A DNA stretch of 64,000 bases from Clostridiales bacterium (lineage in GTDB: Bacteria; Bacillota; Clostridia; Christensenellales; Aristaeellaceae). Location: assembly GCA_015056325.1 (NCBI GenBank), contig SVGL01000001.1, positions 62,001 through 126,000 on the forward strand, read 5' to 3'. Of this stretch, positions 53,479 through 61,251 are shown in pieces. A program made the position numbers and the translations under genes. Under the pieces are notes generated by a model. That model had not been told where the DNA came from and did no database searches. It saw only the letters and a list, made by a program, of their open reading frames with translations. Position 1 is the stretch's first letter, and each line of letters opens with the position of its first letter.

Positions 53479-53652
53479 AGATCAGGCTCCTTTGACGGCT
53501 AGTTCATATTCAGTCAGCCTATTATATCACAGATCCCCCGCAGAGAAAAGAAGAGAATGGTGAGAAAATGATAAAAGTTCAGGTCGTGGACGGGCATGCG
53601 CTGTTTTTTTTCTGCATATCATCCGGCAGACGAAAACACAGGAGGGATCCAT

Positions 53653-55182
53653 ATGGACATGCGTTTGCAGCATACCGAAATGATGCCGGAGATGCCCAGC
53701 CGCGTCGGGCAGTGCCAGATCAATGTCGAAGGAGAAGTGCCGATAGCGGGCAGCCTCAGGGAGACGACCCATGTCCTGTACGCTTCGGCGATGGCTGTGG
53801 TGGAGCGTGCCGAAGCGATGCAGGATCGTGCGTCGATCACCGGACGGGTGACATTCTGTGTCCTGTATACCCAAGGGGATAAAACCCAGGTGGAATCCAT
53901 TGAGGCGACGGCGGAGTTTTCCCATCTGTGCGATCTGCCAGGGGCCACGCCCCATGCTGCGGTATTCGCCTGTGCACAGGCAGCGCATGCCCAGGCACAC
54001 GTCCAGAATGGGCGGATGACCATGCGGGCTGTTGTGAAGCTCCAGTCCCGTGCAGATGTCTGCGAACCGGTGGAGATAGTCGCCCGCGTGGAGGCGTCTG
54101 GCGCTCAGATGCGCACAGAGGAAATCGCCCTTCGCCGCACGGTGGGTCGTGGCAGTCAGGATGTGCTGCTGCGGGAAGAATTTGCCCTGCCCGCAGACCT
54201 TAACATCACCGATACCCTGGGAGCCTGGGCCACGGCGTCCTTTCAAGACACGGCCGGCGGACAGGGACGCATCGGGTTGGCGGGAGAGGTAACCATCGAG
54301 GCCATTCATGCCTCCGGGCTGCCGGGCAAGCCTCTTGTGGTGACACGGCATACCGTACCGGTCAGCCAGAGTGTGGAGATTGCCGGCGAGGGCGGCGACA
54401 TGCTGGATGGACGTATCGTGGTCAAGGATGTTGCCGTGGCCAGTCAGGATATAGGTGATGGGGAGCGTACCCTGCGTGCAGAGGTGCTGCTGGGGTTATC
54501 TGCATGGGCCGACCGAGAGGAAACCGTCACTGTGTTGACCGACGCCTACACCACCGCCAATGACGACCTGAAGCTGACCCGTACGCCCGTGGTCATCCGG
54601 ACCGGTGATAACCGCACCTATGCGGCGGAATCCGGCAAAGCGGCGCTGATGCTGCCCGAGGGTGCGCAACCCATCCGCACCATGCTGGCGGCTTTTGCAA
54701 AACCGGTGATGACGGCCTTCATCCAGCAGGGCAGCCGTCTGGTTGCCGAGGGCTCATTGGACACGACGCTGCTTTACCTGACCGGGGACGGCGGAGCCCC
54801 TGTTTCCGCCAGGATTGAGGCGCCCTTCCGCGCAGCCTTTGCGGCAGAGGCGGCCCCGGAGGACATCGTGCTGCTGAGCTCCTCCAACGTGGAGGCCGTG
54901 CCGATCACTTCCGACCGGGTGGAGCTGCGTTACATCCTGCATGCCCAGGTGGAGGGCCTGCGCACGAGTGAAGTCACCGTCACTACGGATGTTGCCTCTG
55001 TCCCCGCTGCTGCTGTAACGCGGGACATCGCGCTCTACTTCGTTCAGCCTGGAGAAACAGCCTGGGATATCGCCCGACACTATCGCATCCCGGAGGGAGA
55101 GCTGAGAAAACTCAACCCCGACCTTTCTGGCGAGCCCAAGGCTGGTCAGGGTCTTGTGGTGTGGAACAGAGGCGCGGTATAA
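53653..55182 (+). CDS. SPOCS (DUF3794) and LysM protein, SipL-like spore coat assembly factor
   Basis: A 509-aa protein with repeated SPOCS/DUF3794 units across about residues 20-440 and a C-terminal LysM domain (about 460-505, YFVQPGETAWDIARHYRIPEGELRKLN). This layout and length match SipL of Clostridioides difficile, which binds SpoIVA and is needed for spore coat attachment. GGAGGG precedes ATG 53653. No signal peptide is seen, as expected for a mother-cell protein. It implies that the organism makes endospores. No clear sigma-A promoter is visible upstream; a sporulation sigma factor may be used. Confidence 0.85.
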   Translation: MDMRLQHTEMMPEMPSRVGQCQINVEGEVPIAGSLRETTHVLYASAMAVVERAEAMQDRASITGRVTFCVLYTQGDKTQVESIEATAEFSHLCDLPGATPHAAVFACAQAAHAQAHVQNGRMTMRAVVKLQSRADVCEPVEIVARVEASGAQMRTEEIALRRTVGRGSQDVLLREEFALPADLNITDTLGAWATASFQDTAGGQGRIGLAGEVTIEAIHASGLPGKPLVVTRHTVPVSQSVEIAGEGGDMLDGRIVVKDVAVASQDIGDGERTLRAEVLLGLSAWADREETVTVLTDAYTTANDDLKLTRTPVVIRTGDNRTYAAESGKAALMLPEGAQPIRTMLAAFAKPVMTAFIQQGSRLVAEGSLDTTLLYLTGDGGAPVSARIEAPFRAAFAAEAAPEDIVLLSSSNVEAVPITSDRVELRYILHAQVEGLRTSEVTVTTDVASVPAAAVTRDIALYFVQPGETAWDIARHYRIPEGELRKLNPDLSGEPKAGQGLVVWNRGAV

Positions 55183-55225: not shown

Positions 55226-55254
55226 TTGACGGATGGGGTTCAAGGGTATATACT
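55226..55254 (+). promoter_or_regulatory. Promoter of the ABC exporter operon leader
   Basis: TTGACG at 55226-55231 and TATACT at 55249-55254 are exactly 17 bp apart. Transcription would start near 55261. Confidence 0.75.
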
Positions 55255-55262
55255 TGACATCG

Positions 55263-55277
55263 TTGTGAACTTCACAA
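55263..55277. promoter_or_regulatory. Perfect 15-bp palindrome at the transcription start
   Basis: TTGTGAACTTCACAA (7-1-7) lies at about +3 to +17. It fits a dimeric repressor operator, such as a MarR- or TetR-type site. It could instead form a short hairpin at the 5' end of the leader RNA. Confidence 0.5.
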
Positions 55278-55305
55278 ACACATTTTGCAGAAAGGAGGCC
55301 CCAAC

Positions 55306-55377
55306 ATGTTCATGATCAACCGAGTGAATGCCATGACCCTGATGACGGCTCTTTCTGCCTTTGTGCTTCTGCGGTAA
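55306..55377 (+). CDS. 23-residue leader peptide upstream of a drug-exporter operon
   Basis: A very short gene with a near-ideal AAAGGAGG 7 nt before its ATG. It encodes a Met- and Leu-rich hydrophobic peptide beginning MFMINRVNAM and ending FVLLR. The stop is 36 nt before a strong terminator. The layout of promoter, strongly translated mini-gene, terminator and ABC exporter pair is that of ribosome-mediated attenuation, as known for BmrB upstream of BmrCD in Bacillus subtilis. Ten bases at its 3' end (55354-55363) are perfectly complementary to 55470-55479 beyond the terminator. Homology to BmrB is not claimed. Confidence 0.65.
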   Translation: MFMINRVNAMTLMTALSAFVLLR

Positions 55378-55413
55378 AGGGATGCCCTTGACCGCGTCTG
55401 GAACGCTTTGTGC

Positions 55414-55451
55414 AGCACCGGCCGTCCATAAGGATGGTGCGGTGCTTTTTT
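55414..55451 (+). terminator. Attenuator terminator between leader peptide and ABC exporter
   Basis: AGCACCG (55414-55420) pairs with CGGTGCT (55440-55446), with an inner GTCC/GGAT pairing and a following run of six T. It lies inside the leader region, so transcripts must read through it to express the exporter. The rest of 55183-55538 holds the promoter, palindrome, leader gene and a small CCCC/GGGG hairpin before the exporter start. Confidence 0.8.
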
Positions 55452-55538
55452 CATATCATGAAGCGTCCGCAAAGGCAGAGGAACCCCACCTGAACGACCC
55501 TCTTGTTATCCCCGTGAGAAGGGGAAAAGGAGACTCCC

Positions 55539-57377
55539 ATGCACAAGAAAACCAACAAACCCCAAGCATTCCCGGCGATGCTCAGGCTGATTCGGGAGAA
55601 CTGGACCAGCTACCTGGGCGCGATGATCGCCACGGTGATGATCGTCATCATTGGCTTCATTACGCCCCTGGTGCTGGCAGAGACCATCGACTTTGTCCTG
55701 GGCACCAAGCCCTCCACGCTGCCCGCGTTTGCCATTTCTGCCATTGAGCAGCTGGGCGGGCGCGAGTTTCTGCGGGCCAACCTGTGGGTGATGGGCCTGG
55801 CGCTGATCCTTCTGAATCTGGTGAACGGCGTATTCACCTATATGAAGGGCCGGTTGTCTGCTGTGGCCAGCGAGAATATCTCCCAGTCCCTGCGTGAGCG
55901 CCTTTATGCTCACCTGCAGCGCCTGCCCTTTGCCTACCACGTCAAGGCAGAGACCGGCGACCTCATCCAGCGCTGCACCTCTGATGTGGACACCATCCGC
56001 CGCTTCCTCTCCGTGCAGGTGATGGAGGTGGTCAATTCGGTGCTGATGATCGTCATTGCCCTGGTGATCCTCCTTCAGCGCAATGTGCAGATCACGCTGC
56101 TCTCCATGGTGCTGGTGCCGCCGCTGTTCGTGTTTGCGACCTGGTTCTTCTCCATGGTGCACAAGTCCTTCAAGGAGGCAGACGAGTGTGAGGGCAAGAT
56201 GTCCGCCGCACTGCAGGAGAACCTCTCCGGTGTGCGCGTGGTGCGCGCCTTTGGCCAGCAGCAGCGCGAAGTGGAGAAGTTCGACGAGAAGAACGCCACC
56301 CTGCGTAAGCGCTGGCTGAAGCTGAACGTCCTCAGCGCCATCTACTGGTCCGGCGGCGATCTGTTCTCTATGCTGCAGAGCATGATCACCCTGCTGGTGT
56401 GCATTGTTTTTGCCGTGCGCGGGGAGATCACCGCGGGCGAACTGATTATCTTCACCAGCTACATCGGCATGCTGCTGTGGCCGGTGCGCTCCCTGGGCCG
56501 TACCCTCAGCGACATGGGCAAGTCCATGGTAGCTATGGGCCGCATCCAGGATATTCTCCATGCCGAGCCCGAACCTGCCGAGCCCGACGCCATCAAGCCC
56601 GACCTCCATGGCGACATCGTCTTTGACCATGTGTCCTTCGCCTATCCGGACGACGGCGTGCCCGTTCTCAAGGACGTGAGCTTCACCATCCCGGCGGGTT
56701 CCACGGCGGCAGTGCTGGGAGGAACGGGCAGCGGCAAATCCACCATGATGTACCTGCTCCAGCGGCTGTATGAACCGACTGCCGGTCGGATTACTATCGG
56801 CGGCGTGGACATCAAAACCATCGACCGCAGTCACCTGCGCAGCCATGTGGGCCTGATCCTGCAGGAGCCCTTCCTGTACTCCAAGACCATCTATGATAAC
56901 GTGGGCATCATCGGTAACCGTGATGAAAAGGGCATCCGCCACGCTGCAGACGTCGCCCGCGCATCCGGCTTCATTGCTAAGGCGGACAAGGGCTGGGAGA
57001 CCCTGGTGGGCGAGCGCGGTGTGACCCTCTCCGGCGGCCAGAAGCAGCGCATTGCCATTGCTCGCACGCTCCTTAAGGACAACCATGTCCTGATTTTCGA
57101 CGACTCCCTCTCCGCGGTGGACACCGAGACCGACGCCCAGATCCGCGCTGCCCTCAAGGGAGAAAAATCCGGTGTGACCACGCTGATTATCTCCCACCGC
57201 GTGACCACTCTGTCCCAGGCGGATATGATTCTTGTGCTGGAGGATGGCCGCATCACCCAGCAGGGTACCCATGAGGAGCTCTGCCGTGAGGAAGGCCTCT
57301 ACCGCCGCATCAACGCCATCCAGAACACCCTTGAAGAAGAACTGACCCAGGCCATCCAGGCCGAGGGAGGTGTGTAA
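55539..57377 (+). CDS. Heterodimeric ABC exporter, subunit with degenerate ATP site
   Basis: A 612-aa half-transporter with six membrane helices (about 1-320) and a nucleotide-binding domain. Walker A is VLGGTGSGKSTMM, the Q-loop GLILQEPFLYS, and the signature VTLSGGQKQR. Walker B is VLIFDDSLSAVDTETD, where the catalytic Glu is replaced by Asp. This substitution marks one partner of asymmetric heterodimers such as BmrC/BmrD, LmrC/LmrD and TM287/288. AAAAGGAG lies 8 nt before the ATG. The partner gene follows after 1 nt. It is expected to export drugs or lipophilic compounds. Confidence 0.92.
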   Translation: MHKKTNKPQAFPAMLRLIRENWTSYLGAMIATVMIVIIGFITPLVLAETIDFVLGTKPSTLPAFAISAIEQLGGREFLRANLWVMGLALILLNLVNGVFTYMKGRLSAVASENISQSLRERLYAHLQRLPFAYHVKAETGDLIQRCTSDVDTIRRFLSVQVMEVVNSVLMIVIALVILLQRNVQITLLSMVLVPPLFVFATWFFSMVHKSFKEADECEGKMSAALQENLSGVRVVRAFGQQQREVEKFDEKNATLRKRWLKLNVLSAIYWSGGDLFSMLQSMITLLVCIVFAVRGEITAGELIIFTSYIGMLLWPVRSLGRTLSDMGKSMVAMGRIQDILHAEPEPAEPDAIKPDLHGDIVFDHVSFAYPDDGVPVLKDVSFTIPAGSTAAVLGGTGSGKSTMMYLLQRLYEPTAGRITIGGVDIKTIDRSHLRSHVGLILQEPFLYSKTIYDNVGIIGNRDEKGIRHAADVARASGFIAKADKGWETLVGERGVTLSGGQKQRIAIARTLLKDNHVLIFDDSLSAVDTETDAQIRAALKGEKSGVTTLIISHRVTTLSQADMILVLEDGRITQQGTHEELCREEGLYRRINAIQNTLEEELTQAIQAEGGV

Positions 57378-57378
57378 T

Positions 57379-59229
57379 ATGCAGTCCTTTCAGGAAGAAG
57401 ACTATACCAAACGGTTTGACCTGTCCCTTTGGAAGAAGATTATCAAGCTGGCCAAGCCCTACCACAAGAACCTGCTGCTGACGATGATCTACATGGCCAT
57501 CTGCGCCGTGATTGACGTCATTCATCCCCGCATGACCGGCTACGCCATGGATACCTTCATCGCAGACGGCACCACGGATGGGCTTGTGGGGTTCTCGATA
57601 GCCTACATCGCCATGGTGGCGGTGCAGGTGTTTGCCATCTACAAGTTCCAGATTCACAGCGGCCGCACCGAGACCGGCACCTGCTATACCATCCGCAAGC
57701 TGGGTTTCCAGAAGCTGCAGGAGCTGCCCTTTTCCTACTATGACCGCATGCCTGTTGGCTATCTCATGTCCCGACTGACCAACGACACCCAGCGCCTGGG
57801 CGATACCATCGGCTGGTCCATTCTGGATCTGTGCTGGGGCATGGTGTTTCTGGTGAGCTGTACAGTCCAGATGCTGCTGCTCAACTGGAAGCTGACGCTG
57901 GTCATCCTGCTCATCCTGCCGCCCCTGGCTATCATCAGCTGGAAGTTCCAGAAGGGCATCCTGGAAAGCTACCGGCAGGTGCGCAAGCGCAATTCCCAGA
58001 TCACCGCCGGCTTCAACGAGGGCATCAACGGCGCAAAGACGACCAAGACCCTGGTGAGAGAGGAGCTCAACATCCAGGAGTTCAACACCGTTTCTGCTGA
58101 CATGAAGAAGGCCTCCGTCCGCGCGGCTACCCTGAGCGCGTTGTTCCTGCCCATCGTGGTGAGCATTGGCTCCATTGGCACGGCATGGGCGCTGTGGCAG
58201 GGCGGATCCTCCATCATCAAGGGCGTGGAGATCATGGGCACGGTGATGACCATCGGCACCCTGCAGGTGTTTGTAAACTACACCGTATCCTTTTTCCAGC
58301 CCGTGCGCGATATTGCCCGAATGTTTGCTGAAATGCAGTCCGCCCAGGCAGCGGCGGAGCGCGTTGTGTCCCTGCTGGAGACCGAGCCGGACATCATTGA
58401 TACCCCCGAGGTGGAGGCCGTCTTCGGCGACAACTTCCATCCCAAGAAGGAAAACTGGCCTGCTCTCATCGGCGACATCGACTTTGAGGACGTGACCTTC
58501 CGCTACAAGGACGGCGAGAAGGTGCTGGAGCACTTCAACCTTCACGTGGAGCATGGCCAGACCATCGCCCTCGTGGGTGAAACAGGCTCCGGCAAGTCCA
58601 CCATCGTCAACCTGATCTGTCGCTTCTATGAACCGACTTCCGGTCGGATTCTGATCGATGGCGCGGACTACCGCACCCGCAGCCAGCTGTGGCTCCAGTC
58701 GAATCTGGGCTATGTGCTGCAGTCGCCCCATCTGTTCTCGGGCACCGTTGCGGACAACATCCGCTACGGCCGTCCGGACGCGACCATTGAGGAAGTCCAT
58801 GCTGCTGCCCGAATGGTCGGCGCGGAGGAGTTCATCCTTGCCATGAAGGACGGCTTTGACGCCAATGTGGGCGAGGGCGGAAACCGCCTCTCCACCGGCC
58901 AGAAGCAGCTGGTCTCCTTTGCCCGCGCGATCCTGACCAACCCGTCCATCTTCGTCCTGGACGAGGCCACCTCCTCCGTTGATACTGAGACCGAGCAGCT
59001 CATCCAGAACGCCATCCAGACCGTGCTCAGCGGGCGCACCAGCTTCATCATTGCCCACCGCCTGTCCACCATCCGCAGCGCTGACCGCATCCTGGTCATC
59101 CAGAACGGGGCAATTACCGAGGACGGCACCCACCGCCAGCTGATCGCCAAGCAGGGCTACTACTACCAGCTCTACACCAACCAGTTCCAGGAAGAGCAGG
59201 GGCTGGATATTCTGGATGGAAAGGCGTAA
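57379..59229 (+). CDS. Heterodimeric ABC exporter, catalytic partner
   Basis: A 616-aa half-transporter. The membrane domain covers about 1-330. The nucleotide-binding domain has Walker A VGETGSGKSTIVN, Q-loop GYVLQSPHLFS, and Walker B IFVLDEATSSVDTETE with the normal catalytic Glu. The signature is the non-consensus RLSTGQKQL instead of LSGGQ. The normal Walker B here and the Asp in the partner, with opposite signature quality, predict one active and one degenerate ATP site in the dimer. GGGAGG lies 8 nt before ATG 57379. A GNAT gene follows after 1 nt. Confidence 0.92.
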   Translation: MQSFQEEDYTKRFDLSLWKKIIKLAKPYHKNLLLTMIYMAICAVIDVIHPRMTGYAMDTFIADGTTDGLVGFSIAYIAMVAVQVFAIYKFQIHSGRTETGTCYTIRKLGFQKLQELPFSYYDRMPVGYLMSRLTNDTQRLGDTIGWSILDLCWGMVFLVSCTVQMLLLNWKLTLVILLILPPLAIISWKFQKGILESYRQVRKRNSQITAGFNEGINGAKTTKTLVREELNIQEFNTVSADMKKASVRAATLSALFLPIVVSIGSIGTAWALWQGGSSIIKGVEIMGTVMTIGTLQVFVNYTVSFFQPVRDIARMFAEMQSAQAAAERVVSLLETEPDIIDTPEVEAVFGDNFHPKKENWPALIGDIDFEDVTFRYKDGEKVLEHFNLHVEHGQTIALVGETGSGKSTIVNLICRFYEPTSGRILIDGADYRTRSQLWLQSNLGYVLQSPHLFSGTVADNIRYGRPDATIEEVHAAARMVGAEEFILAMKDGFDANVGEGGNRLSTGQKQLVSFARAILTNPSIFVLDEATSSVDTETEQLIQNAIQTVLSGRTSFIIAHRLSTIRSADRILVIQNGAITEDGTHRQLIAKQGYYYQLYTNQFQEEQGLDILDGKA

Positions 59230-59230
59230 C

Positions 59231-59674
59231 ATGCAGATCATCGACTACTTCGCCTGTAACGATCAGCCCCACTGGCGCGCCGCCATCGCTGATAACGAGT
59301 GGCGCGCTGCCAAGTACCTCGCCCGGCTGCTGACAAATAGCCAATTTCACCAGGAAGTGGGCGAGGGAACCGTCTACCTGCTGACGGACGGGGACAAGCT
59401 GGTTTCTTTCCTGACCCTCGCTGAGCGCGACTGCGTGGACGTGCCCTACACCCCCTGGATCGGCTTTGTCCACACTGCGCCGGAATACCGCGGCCACCGC
59501 CATGTCGGCAAGCTCATCGACCATGCCTGCGCTGTTGCCCGCGAACATGGCGCAGTACGGGTTTACCTCGCCACCGACCATGTGGGGCTGTATGAGAAGT
59601 ACGGCTTTACCTACCTGGAGAACCGCGTGAGTGTGTATGGGGAGGAAAGCCGCATCTACATCCGCGACCTGTGA
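59231..59674 (+). CDS. GNAT-family N-acetyltransferase
   Basis: A 147-aa acetyltransferase. VYLLTDGDKLVSFLTLAERD is the central beta hairpin. FVHTAPEYRGHRHVGKLIDHA carries the acetyl-CoA loop (variant of RGxGxG), and LYEKYGFTYLEN is the usual C-terminal strand-helix. It starts 1 nt after the ABC partner gene with no separate promoter, so expression depends on the attenuator. The substrate is unknown. Linkage to an exporter suggests detoxification, but this is inference. Confidence 0.85.
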   Translation: MQIIDYFACNDQPHWRAAIADNEWRAAKYLARLLTNSQFHQEVGEGTVYLLTDGDKLVSFLTLAERDCVDVPYTPWIGFVHTAPEYRGHRHVGKLIDHACAVAREHGAVRVYLATDHVGLYEKYGFTYLENRVSVYGEESRIYIRDL

Positions 59675-59686
59675 GAAAGGAATTAC

Positions 59687-60682
59687 ATGCATCATAAATC
59701 CTGGTCAAACCTGAGAAAAAGCCTGGAAGAAGACCGTCTCTGCCCGGCCCTTCGTGGGCGGGTGCAGTACTTCCTGACTCGCTACCATGACGCCCATGAC
59801 GACGAAGGTCGCCTGTGCATCCGGGTGGACGGGAAGGAATACCTGAGTTCGCACCAATGGAACCATCATGAATGGTATCATGATGGTAAGTACCGACGGC
59901 GTACAAGAGAAGAACAGAATCAGAAGGGTCTGTTCTGTTACTGCCAAGTCCTACAGGCCATCGACGCCTACATGGACGAGCTGACCATCGACGAAGCGCT
60001 GTCCTCTGAGGATCCACTCATCCGTCTGTTCGCCGTGCTTGACCGCCGCGTGGGCAAACGCCGTCTGTCTTCGCTTGCTTCCGCCATGGAGAACGAGCCG
60101 GAATGGCTGCAGTTCTTCTACCGGCTGCGGCTGGAGGCGGAGGGGTACAAGCTGCCAATCAGAATTGTGCCGTTGACTTGCGATAACTTCCGTGCTGACT
60201 CGCTGGATGGCTTTATCCGCCATCAGGAGGTCACTGAATGCTGGCGCTGCGTGAACGGCGAATGGCAGCTGCTGCCCATTGCTTTCACCGAGGATTGGGA
60301 TCTTTCGCGCCTGCAGGCGGAAGCCGCTGACGTCCTGCGAGCCATTGCGGCTGGTATTCCTGCCATTGGCGCCTTTGACGGAGAAAAGTTAGTAGGCTTC
60401 GCCCAGCTGGGCGAACATCTTGGCAGCCGTGGACAGTATATCGAGCTGGTCAACTATCATGTGTCTGCACCGTATCGGGGGCAGGGGATCGGCAGGAGGC
60501 TGTTCGCAGCCATCTGTGACGCAGCCCGCAGCCTTAGCGCGGAGAAGCTGTACATCTCGGCCCATTCCTCGAAGGAATCCCAGACGGCGTATCAGGCGCT
60601 TGGCTGCGTGCTGGCGCAGGAGGTCGATGCAAAGCGTGCGGCCAACGAACCCTGCGATGTGCAGATGGAATACGACTTGTAG
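59687..60682 (+). CDS. Fusion of SF0329-like domain and GNAT acetyltransferase
   Basis: A 331-aa two-part protein. Residues 1-150 resemble SF0329-family proteins (SWSNLRKSLEEDRLCPALRGR, QYFLTRYHDAHDDEGR and IRVDGKEYLSSH), a small family of unknown function. Residues about 165-331 are a GNAT domain, with AFDGEKLVGFAQLGEHL, NYHVSAPYRGQGIGRRLFAAI for acetyl-CoA, and YISAHSSKESQTAYQALGCVLA. AAAGGA precedes the ATG. The join seems natural, with no frameshift. The first domain may choose the substrate. It is in the exporter operon, 12 nt after the first GNAT gene. Confidence 0.82.
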   Translation: MHHKSWSNLRKSLEEDRLCPALRGRVQYFLTRYHDAHDDEGRLCIRVDGKEYLSSHQWNHHEWYHDGKYRRRTREEQNQKGLFCYCQVLQAIDAYMDELTIDEALSSEDPLIRLFAVLDRRVGKRRLSSLASAMENEPEWLQFFYRLRLEAEGYKLPIRIVPLTCDNFRADSLDGFIRHQEVTECWRCVNGEWQLLPIAFTEDWDLSRLQAEAADVLRAIAAGIPAIGAFDGEKLVGFAQLGEHLGSRGQYIELVNYHVSAPYRGQGIGRRLFAAICDAARSLSAEKLYISAHSSKESQTAYQALGCVLAQEVDAKRAANEPCDVQMEYDL

Positions 60683-60695
60683 GAGGTTACCGAAC

Positions 60696-61208
60696 ATGAA
60701 TAAGGGACGCATCATCTTCCTTAACGGCGTGACCTCCTCTGGTAAGACCTCTATCGTGGAGGCGCTGCAAAACCGGGATGACTGCTATTTCTATGTTGTC
60801 GCTAACGATCTGTTTGAGCAGATGATCGGTGACAAATTCCTCCAGGAGGATTACTGGCAGCACCTCAGCCGGGTCATTCTGCTGATGTACCACACCGCCA
60901 AGCTGTTCTCCGACATGGGGCATGATGTGCTGATTGATGGTATCCTGGTAGAGCGAACGGAAATCGCGCCTCATTATCAGCAGATGATGGACATCCTTGC
61001 AAACAGTCCGCTACACATAGTTGAGGTGGCCTGTCCGCTGGACATCTGCCGGGCGCGCAACATCGCCCGCAGTGACCGGTACGAGAACCAGTCCGCCGAG
61101 CAAGCCGAACTCATGGCAAAGGACATCCACTATGTCATGACCGTCCATACTGACCAAAATACCCCGGAGGAGTGTGCCGAGGCAATCGTCCGGACGATTA
61201 TGAAATAG
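60696..61208 (+). CDS. Chloramphenicol phosphotransferase-like kinase
   Basis: A 170-aa P-loop kinase. Walker A is NGVTSSGKTSI (about 10-20), and Asp38 in VVANDLFEQM is at the position of the catalytic base in the Streptomyces chloramphenicol 3-O-phosphotransferase. VACPLDICRARNIARSDRYENQS and the C-terminal HTDQNTPEECAEAIV also match that family. TAGGAGG precedes the ATG. Many relatives act on other small molecules, so chloramphenicol is not certain. It is the last gene of the exporter operon and is followed by a terminator. Confidence 0.83.
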   Translation: MNKGRIIFLNGVTSSGKTSIVEALQNRDDCYFYVVANDLFEQMIGDKFLQEDYWQHLSRVILLMYHTAKLFSDMGHDVLIDGILVERTEIAPHYQQMMDILANSPLHIVEVACPLDICRARNIARSDRYENQSAEQAELMAKDIHYVMTVHTDQNTPEECAEAIVRTIMK

Positions 61209-61223
61209 GGACGTAATGCGACA

Positions 61224-61251
61224 AGCCCGGAAGCACTGCTTCCGGGCTATT
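61224..61251 (+). terminator. Terminator of the exporter operon
   Basis: AGCCCGGAAGC and GCTTCCGGGCT form a perfect 11-bp stem with a 3-base loop, followed by ATTTC. It separates the operon from the convergent dacF-like gene. Confidence 0.75.

Follow-up and report, generated by a model that had tools for sequence, protein, structure and literature searches.

Control of transcription through ribosomes on a small upstream open reading frame (uORF) is a kind of mechanism already published for vmlR, bmrB, Rli53/Rli59, cplR and toiL, and it is beside these that we place a leader at positions 55261-55450 of a 64,000-nucleotide window (the whole stretch of DNA that was analysed, from contig SVGL01000001.1 of a gut bacterium of the Clostridiales), where it precedes an operon for a pair of ATP-binding cassette (ABC) exporter halves. 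The likenesses are as the cited accounts allow them to be drawn. With vmlR of Bacillus subtilis the leader shares a uORF set within an anti-antiterminator, an antiterminator and an intrinsic terminator (PMC9226507), and in that account vmlR needs the Shine-Dalgarno (SD) sequence and start codon of its uORF, its cognate drugs, lincomycin and retapamulin, stalling initiating ribosomes. The bmrB-bmrCD operon of the same species, as outlined in PMC4191407, has a translated leader open reading frame (ORF), a terminator, a predicted antiterminator and anti-antiterminator, and a heterodimeric ABC exporter, each with a counterpart here. In Listeria, Rli53 (lmo0919) and Rli59 (lmo1652) are described as giving translation-coupled attenuation of ABC genes that responds to lincomycin, likewise with anti-antiterminator and antiterminator laid over a small ORF (PMC8079631). 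For cplR of Clostridioides difficile, also of a clostridial lineage, uORF-controlled attenuation of both transcription and translation is reported (PMC10201436), and toiL of Escherichia coli is presented as a uORF that senses ribosomes stuck at the start codon with tetracycline or retapamulin (PMC12121999), which is the position predicted to matter here too. Attenuators named 'ABC-leaders' were predicted in 2010, one of them before a multidrug exporter in lactobacilli (PMC2965389).

The window is part of a metagenome-assembled genome, G000, of 3.06 Mb, with 63 contigs and a completeness of 85%, and on its forward strand the locus runs in the order promoter, 23-codon leader ORF with an AGGAGG, strong terminator, five close-packed genes and an end hairpin. 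We consider it quite probable that the leader is a transcription attenuator which senses ribosome position and is opened by ribosomes parked at the leader start. The anatomy, the conservation, the co-varying alternative pairings and their dependence on ribosome position are computed results; from them we infer that in cells the switch operates during transcription, that it would be induced by drugs which trap initiating or early ribosomes (by analogy lincosamides, pleuromutilins and perhaps tetracyclines), and that the pump would export such start-trapping drugs. The antibiotic link of the attenuator rests on analogy.

Alternative pairings in the leader and their conservation

Four segments are pertinent. 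Segment 1 (55286-55301) is the ribosome-binding site of the leader, with its AGGAGG at 55293-55298; the leader ORF, MFMINRVNAMTLMTALSAFVLLR*, of 23 codons plus stop, occupies 55306-55377, and its late codons are segment 2 (55343-55359); segments 3 and 4 are the arms of the intrinsic terminator hairpin at 55414-55446, whose U-run extends to 55450. With no ribosome on the leader, or with one already past, segment 1 would pair with segment 2 as an anti-antiterminator and the terminator (3:4) would form. A ribosome translating to the leader end would cover segment 2, and the terminator would again form. A ribosome held at about codons 1-4 would instead cover segment 1 and free segment 2 to catch segment 3 as it emerges, and with this antiterminator (2:3) RNA polymerase would read on into the exporter operon. 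In the window, the predicted 1:2 duplex joins 55286-55301 to 55346-55359 (-17.2 kcal/mol) and the 2:3 duplex joins 55343-55359 to 55411-55427, i.e. to the terminator 5′ arm (-17.9 kcal/mol). The terminator itself is strong, as the preliminary description had it: the stretch 55400-55460 folds at -24.8 kcal/mol (z -3.53), a value equalled by none of 200 shuffles. The same description spoke of a strongly translated mini-gene, of which the ORF and the AGGAGG stand, the strength of translation being read from the SD only.

Of a first set of 80 outside loci two were too short, and in 56 of the 78 usable ones a leader ORF and terminator lie upstream of the exporter gene. A search of 300 genomes of the window's family gave a match in at least 239, and another 80 upstream regions were taken from these. 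With both sets and the relatives from 60 genomes searched for half 1 of the exporter, 187 upstream regions reduced to 161 unique ones, of which 138 have the terminator and 122 both the leader ORF and the terminator ahead of the exporter gene; a comparison of leaders upstream of related exporters had been proposed in the preliminary description. Where one region held several ORFs or terminators, the choice was made by SD strength, ATG start and terminator energy, and not by pairing. An ORF of at least 14 codons situated 10-110 nt before the terminator was present in 119, which were reduced to 84 representatives; these and the window make up the modelling set of 85 leaders. Within the genus, all seven genomes with a window-type pair (the window's own, G017, G005, G002, G015, G008 and G003) have the leader ORF and terminator. 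ORF, SD and terminator are conserved, translation being predicted, and a leader ORF ahead of an intrinsic terminator is the arrangement of an attenuator.

The pairing of late codons with the leader's own SD is the strongest of the comparative signals. Over the 119 leaders the ORF:SD (1:2) duplex beats the mean of dinucleotide shuffles in 116, with a mean z of -2.39, as against 0.02 for a control set of 300 ordinary gene starts with GGAGG; values below -2 occur in 68 of the 119 leaders as against 16 of the 300 gene starts (p 1.8e-41). Pairing of the ORF with the terminator arm (2:3) is better than the shuffle mean in 82 of 119 (mean z -0.67), and the sites used by the two pairings overlap by 10.8 nt, compared with 6.5 in shuffles (p 6.6e-14). 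When partners were swapped among the 84 representatives, the ORF paired with its own SD at -20.9 kcal/mol and with swapped ones at -15.6, its own being better in 82 of 84, or in 77 of 84 if the comparison was confined to the SD-to-start-codon stretch. For the terminator arm the figures were -13.1 matched and -11.9 swapped (matched better in 54 of 84), and for neither partner was any of 5000 permutations as good as the matched pairing. Taking all 119 leaders, the terminator arm gives a modest difference (-12.66 vs -11.82 swapped, p 0.002) and beats both swap means in 56, the SD pairing being far stronger. The late codons, then, co-vary with their own SD and terminator arm across genomes in which the peptides are quite different.

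A blind scan is also relevant. On both strands of 98 loci (1.36 Mb), all of them selected for holding the exporter, mini-ORFs of 14-50 codons were sought that have a strong SD and precede a terminator. Of 86 candidates, 66 precede a gene matching any of the window's six query proteins, and 42 of these have a z below -2; 13 precede other genes, with z below -2 in two; the remaining seven lack a downstream gene of 120 codons. Scanning the window for more such leaders gave 10 rows, with AGGAGG only in the known leader (1:2 z -0.8) and with z values from -0.6 to 1.1 for the other nine.

Ribosome position and competing explanations

For modelling, the transcript was folded up to the terminator loop with the ribosome footprint made unavailable and kinetics ignored, and the antiterminator fraction was taken as the share of the terminator 5′ arm held by leader codons. 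In the window this fraction goes from 0.004 on a ribosome-free leader to 0.66 with the P site at codons 1-3; it is 0.42 at codon 4, 0.08 at codon 5 and no more than about 0.01 towards the leader end. Averaged over the 85 leaders it is 0.255 with no ribosome, 0.62 at codons 1-4, 0.28 at codons 7-10 and 0.09 at the last three. It rises by more than 0.05 in 67 of 85 leaders and falls by that much in none; with the late codons shuffled the rise is 0.12, compared with 0.37 for the real ones (p 5.5e-10), and the size of the footprint matters little. In Lutispora saccharofermentans (L089), a cultured carrier of the leader, the predicted fraction goes from 0.02 to 0.67. Together with the conservation and the pairing tests, this supports the earlier suggestion of ribosome-mediated transcription attenuation of a BmrCD-like exporter. 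The accompanying suggestion that stalling on the leader opens the operon is kept in part: it is predicted for ribosomes on codons 1-4, and a stall near the leader end is predicted to give almost no antiterminator.

Several results weigh against a switch of this kind. No usable leader was obtained from 42 of the 161 unique regions. The 2:3 signal, by the counts above (82 of 119 with mean z -0.67; 54 of 84 in the swap test), is much weaker than the 1:2 signal. The window alone is not significant against shuffles, with z of -1.2 and -0.8 for 1:2 and of -1.3 for 2:3. The case for the switch is for this reason comparative: of the mutually exclusive hairpins that the preliminary description proposed to look for, the 1:2 and 2:3 alternatives emerge from prediction combined with comparison across genomes, significance being reached only in the comparison. 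In a Candidatus Faecaligallichristensenella leader (L067) the 1:2 signal is absent (z 0.7) and the antiterminator moves from 0.01 to 0.17. The leader of G015 (L006) has a strong 1:2 pairing and an antiterminator that stays at 0.00, that of G008 (L007) goes from 0.33 to 0.44 only, and that of Tissierella pigra (L119) hardly moves (0.66 to 0.74). Overall, the change does not exceed 0.05 in 18 of 85 leaders, and a rise above 0.2, seen in 55 of 85 real leaders, occurs also in 229 of 850 shuffled ones. Finally, with the full leader at equilibrium every state tried favours the terminator, and because of this the switch would have to be kinetic, the antiterminator winning by forming first.

A bmrB-like attenuator with no preference for the start codon, in which slowing of translation anywhere before segment 2 would give the antiterminator, is rather unlikely. 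It would accord with the response of bmrB to lincomycin, erythromycin and chloramphenicol, as reported in PMC4191407, and with a modelled antiterminator that remains above zero at codons 7-10 (the mean of 0.28). The sharp drop in the window between codons 3 and 5, from 0.66 to 0.08, is what argues against it, since past codon 4 the SD would re-emerge behind the ribosome and pair with segment 2.

Sensing of the nascent chain is a different type of explanation. A drug-dependent arrest at the leader C-terminus would disrupt a hairpin and so open the operon, the candidate motif being RLR, which we take to be the '+X+' macrolide arrest motif as in erm/mef leaders. The leader peptides of G017, G005 and G002 do end in FVRLR, and a hairpin is predicted over the stop codon (55370-55396, inside the predicted antiterminator loop), with stem ends UGCGGU...ACCGC(A) that are readable also in L051 and L005. 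The window, however, has LLR, and the C-termini of other leaders are diverse and unrelated; no arrest motif of the ermC/ermD/mef kind is conserved among the leaders, RLR being present in three of the four closest and absent from the window. A ribosome at the penultimate codon gives a modelled antiterminator of 0.01 in the window and of 0.09 on average over the 85 leaders. The four close leaders vary at two of their last 11 codons, counting the stop, each time with a change of amino acid, and there is no synonymous variation. This is as a constraint on RNA predicts; since the variable codons are amino-acid changing, no silent site varies and the terminator 5′ arm is identical in all four close genomes (the 3′ arm varies), it points to the RNA, and not the leader peptide, as what is kept. 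C-terminal arrest at RLR, absent from the window and at a position where modelled stalls leave the switch closed, was set aside as improbable.

We give equally little credence to control of the promoter by a regulator protein bound to the palindrome, with the terminator as merely a fixed damper. The promoter reported in the preliminary description is present at 55226-55254 (-35 TTGACG at 55226-55231, a 17-nt spacer, -10 TATACT at 55249-55254), with 10 of 12 matches, and is kept in the four closest genomes; on its own the call is weak, because the scanned 8.5 kb holds seven promoter-like sites where 2.5 are expected. At the predicted transcript start the palindrome TTGTGAA-C-TTCACAA, at 55263-55277, is perfect as described, and this is what would favour an operator. 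In the RNA form (UUGUGA-N3-UCACAA) its loop measures 3 nt in the window and in G017 and G005, against 4 nt in G002, and hairpins of other sequence occupy the same place in G015, G008, L053, L149, L171, L179 and others, which weakens the operator proposed for it; nor is the upstream neighbour, a SipL/LysM protein gene, that of a regulator. With loop length and stem sequence varying in this way the operator was set aside, and a 5′-terminal RNA hairpin is most likely the better description. Such a hairpin is a feature of only a subset of leaders, given that stem length in the 5′-untranslated region is but slightly above shuffles (3.07 vs 2.67, p 0.003, in the 103 leaders with a promoter found, G003 being left out of the scoring). 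Attenuation by amino-acid starvation is scarcely credible: four of the 23 leader codons are Met, the start included, but the window leader has no run of a single codon and the others, by eye, no apparent shared richness in an amino acid.

The exporter operon and its neighbours

The five genes are separated by gaps of 1, 1, 12 and 13 nt, as the preliminary description stated, and its naming of them is borne out by Pfam. Exporter half 1, BmrC-like, is at 55539-57377 and half 2, BmrD-like, at 57379-59229; a GNAT acetyltransferase gene (59231-59674), one for an SF0329 domain fused to a GNAT domain (59687-60682) and one for a putative chloramphenicol-phosphotransferase (CPT)-like P-loop kinase (60696-61208) follow. 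The pair is asymmetric because half 1 has D-D (DDS) after Walker B, marking a degenerate site, and half 2 has D-E (DEA). Solved relatives of the halves include B. subtilis YheI and YheH, i.e. BmrC and BmrD, eukaryotic ABCB proteins ranking above these since they hold two halves. Two halves with one degenerate site are what a heterodimeric exporter of the BmrCD/TM287-288 type has, and by its residues the pair is presumably of that type. A homologue of half 1 at E 1e-100 or better is present in 37 of 60 genomes searched (the window's own included).

The enzymes are less certain. The kinase scores 51 bits, compared with a cut-off of 250 for the curated CPT model, and passes the Pfam superfamily model (81.3 vs 22); its best solved match spans 61 residues only, and PADLOC gave one weak match, of the kinase to mad8 (E 0.0026). 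With the kinase so far below the CPT cut-off, 'drug-modifying' is a guess for all three. In G017, the closest genome, all five genes recur in the same order, followed by the same convergent carboxypeptidase gene; G015 has the pair and CPT, G013 and G016 a divergent pair (41-46% identical) with GNAT and CPT, and G006 a divergent pair with GNAT. Of the 18 genus genomes 10 contain CPT, six of them near the exporter pair (G000, G017, G015, G013, G016 and, by coordinates alone, G004); in G012, G001 and G007 it is on another contig, and its placement in G002 cannot be judged because the exporter pair there runs off the contig end. The SF0329-GNAT fusion is matched at full length only in the window and G017, with at least one part matched in 9 of the 18. 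Among the 80 outside loci, relatives of CPT and of the fusion above 60 bits occur only in L050 (the same G017 contig), and L052 has a GNAT relative at 41%. In 55 of the 80 no ORF of at least 80 codons begins within 80 nt past the second exporter gene, 39 of these 55 having at least 500 bases of contig left. The export-plus-inactivation cassette put forward in the preliminary description does not, then, hold as a general rule: as the enzyme genes rarely accompany the pair outside the genus, it is the exporter pair to which the leader belongs, the enzymes having been added at the level of the genus.

Other observations concern the surroundings. In G006, G013 and G016 (L044, L045 and L046) the divergent pair stands beside the same carboxypeptidase gene, GNAT, DacF and (in G013 and G016) CPT being 67-75% identical, as if the exporter pair had been replaced; these pairs are likewise preceded by a leader ORF and terminator. 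The exporter was also found in Cloacimonadota metagenome-assembled records (L096, L116 and L123), with the leader ORF and terminator in L096 and L123, L116 being too short, and in two Halanaerobiales records (L099 and L104), both with leader ORF and terminator; either transfer or binning error would account for these. A second SF0329-type match in the window's genome (G000:C12:68506-68964) is 41% identical to the fused domain. Past the terminator, the stretch 55468-55481 of the window is the complement of leader codons (UCUGCCUUUGUG); in three close relatives, judged visually, the match is shorter, bulged or includes G-U pairs, and transcripts that read through could thereby gain a further long-range helix. 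A hairpin, UCCCC...GGGGA, at 55509-55525, just 5′ of the SD of the first exporter gene and kept in the four closest genomes, makes translation-level control possible. Directly upstream of the operon is a gene for a SipL/SPOCS and LysM protein (53596-55182), of spore-coat type by family name, and downstream an 11-bp hairpin at 61224-61248, AGCCCGGAAGC-ACT-GCTTCCGGGCT, to which no strand is assigned, separates the operon from the convergent D-Ala-D-Ala carboxypeptidase gene.

Comparison with described attenuators

If the proposal is right, many gut and rumen Clostridia, most of them uncultured, have exporter operons with sequence-predictable control, and these should respond to ribosome drugs that trap at the start and not to those that stall late. 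Recurring ends of leader peptides need not imply a nascent-chain sensor, and the leader offers a clean design for testing how RNA folding reads the occupancy of early codons. The balance tips slightly towards a broader proposal, that of an uncatalogued attenuator class spread across Clostridia. The codons at the C-terminal end of a long leader would be an antisense copy of its own ribosome-binding site, and the resulting logic gate would fire only with a ribosome on the first four codons, being off without a ribosome or once one had moved beyond them; leader motifs as varied as RPP, GRL, AQPP, CRRRG and RLR would then be a single RNA complement seen in several frames. No Rfam gathering score was reached, the only match being to a snoRNA at E 0.34, below its gathering score, and no description of this long-leader design was found in searches of an open-licence library, subscription papers being outside its scope.

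The differences from the published cases, as far as their cited accounts describe them, are of several types. For bmrB, a comparison by description, the terminator lies inside a 53-codon ORF and AbrB acts at the promoter, compared with a terminator 36 nt past the stop codon here; AbrB together with attenuation already governs bmrBCD (PMC4191407), and double control by operator and attenuator, which the preliminary description thought new, has its precedent there. Rli53, likened to the window leader also by description, has a three-codon ORF (PMC8079631). The proposed response of toiL is to stalls anywhere, via its ribosome-binding site and Rho (PMC12121999), whereas here late stalls are predicted to be non-inducing. 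The cplR uORF is MR[I/M] and precedes an ABCF gene (PMC10201436), and vmlR combines a three-codon uORF with an ABCF ribosome-protection gene (PMC9226507); the window leader is not a three-codon uORF of the vmlR/cplR kind before an ABCF gene, but has 23 codons before an ABC exporter pair, the other leaders counted having at least 14 by the filter used. Unlike vmlR as described in PMC9226507, the competing strand is in the late codons of the leader, and because it is inside them a ribosome translating the full length would here also block the antiterminator. What is distinct is the long leader in which switching falls to the late codons, its wide occurrence ahead of BmrCD-like exporters across Clostridia, and its having no Rfam match.

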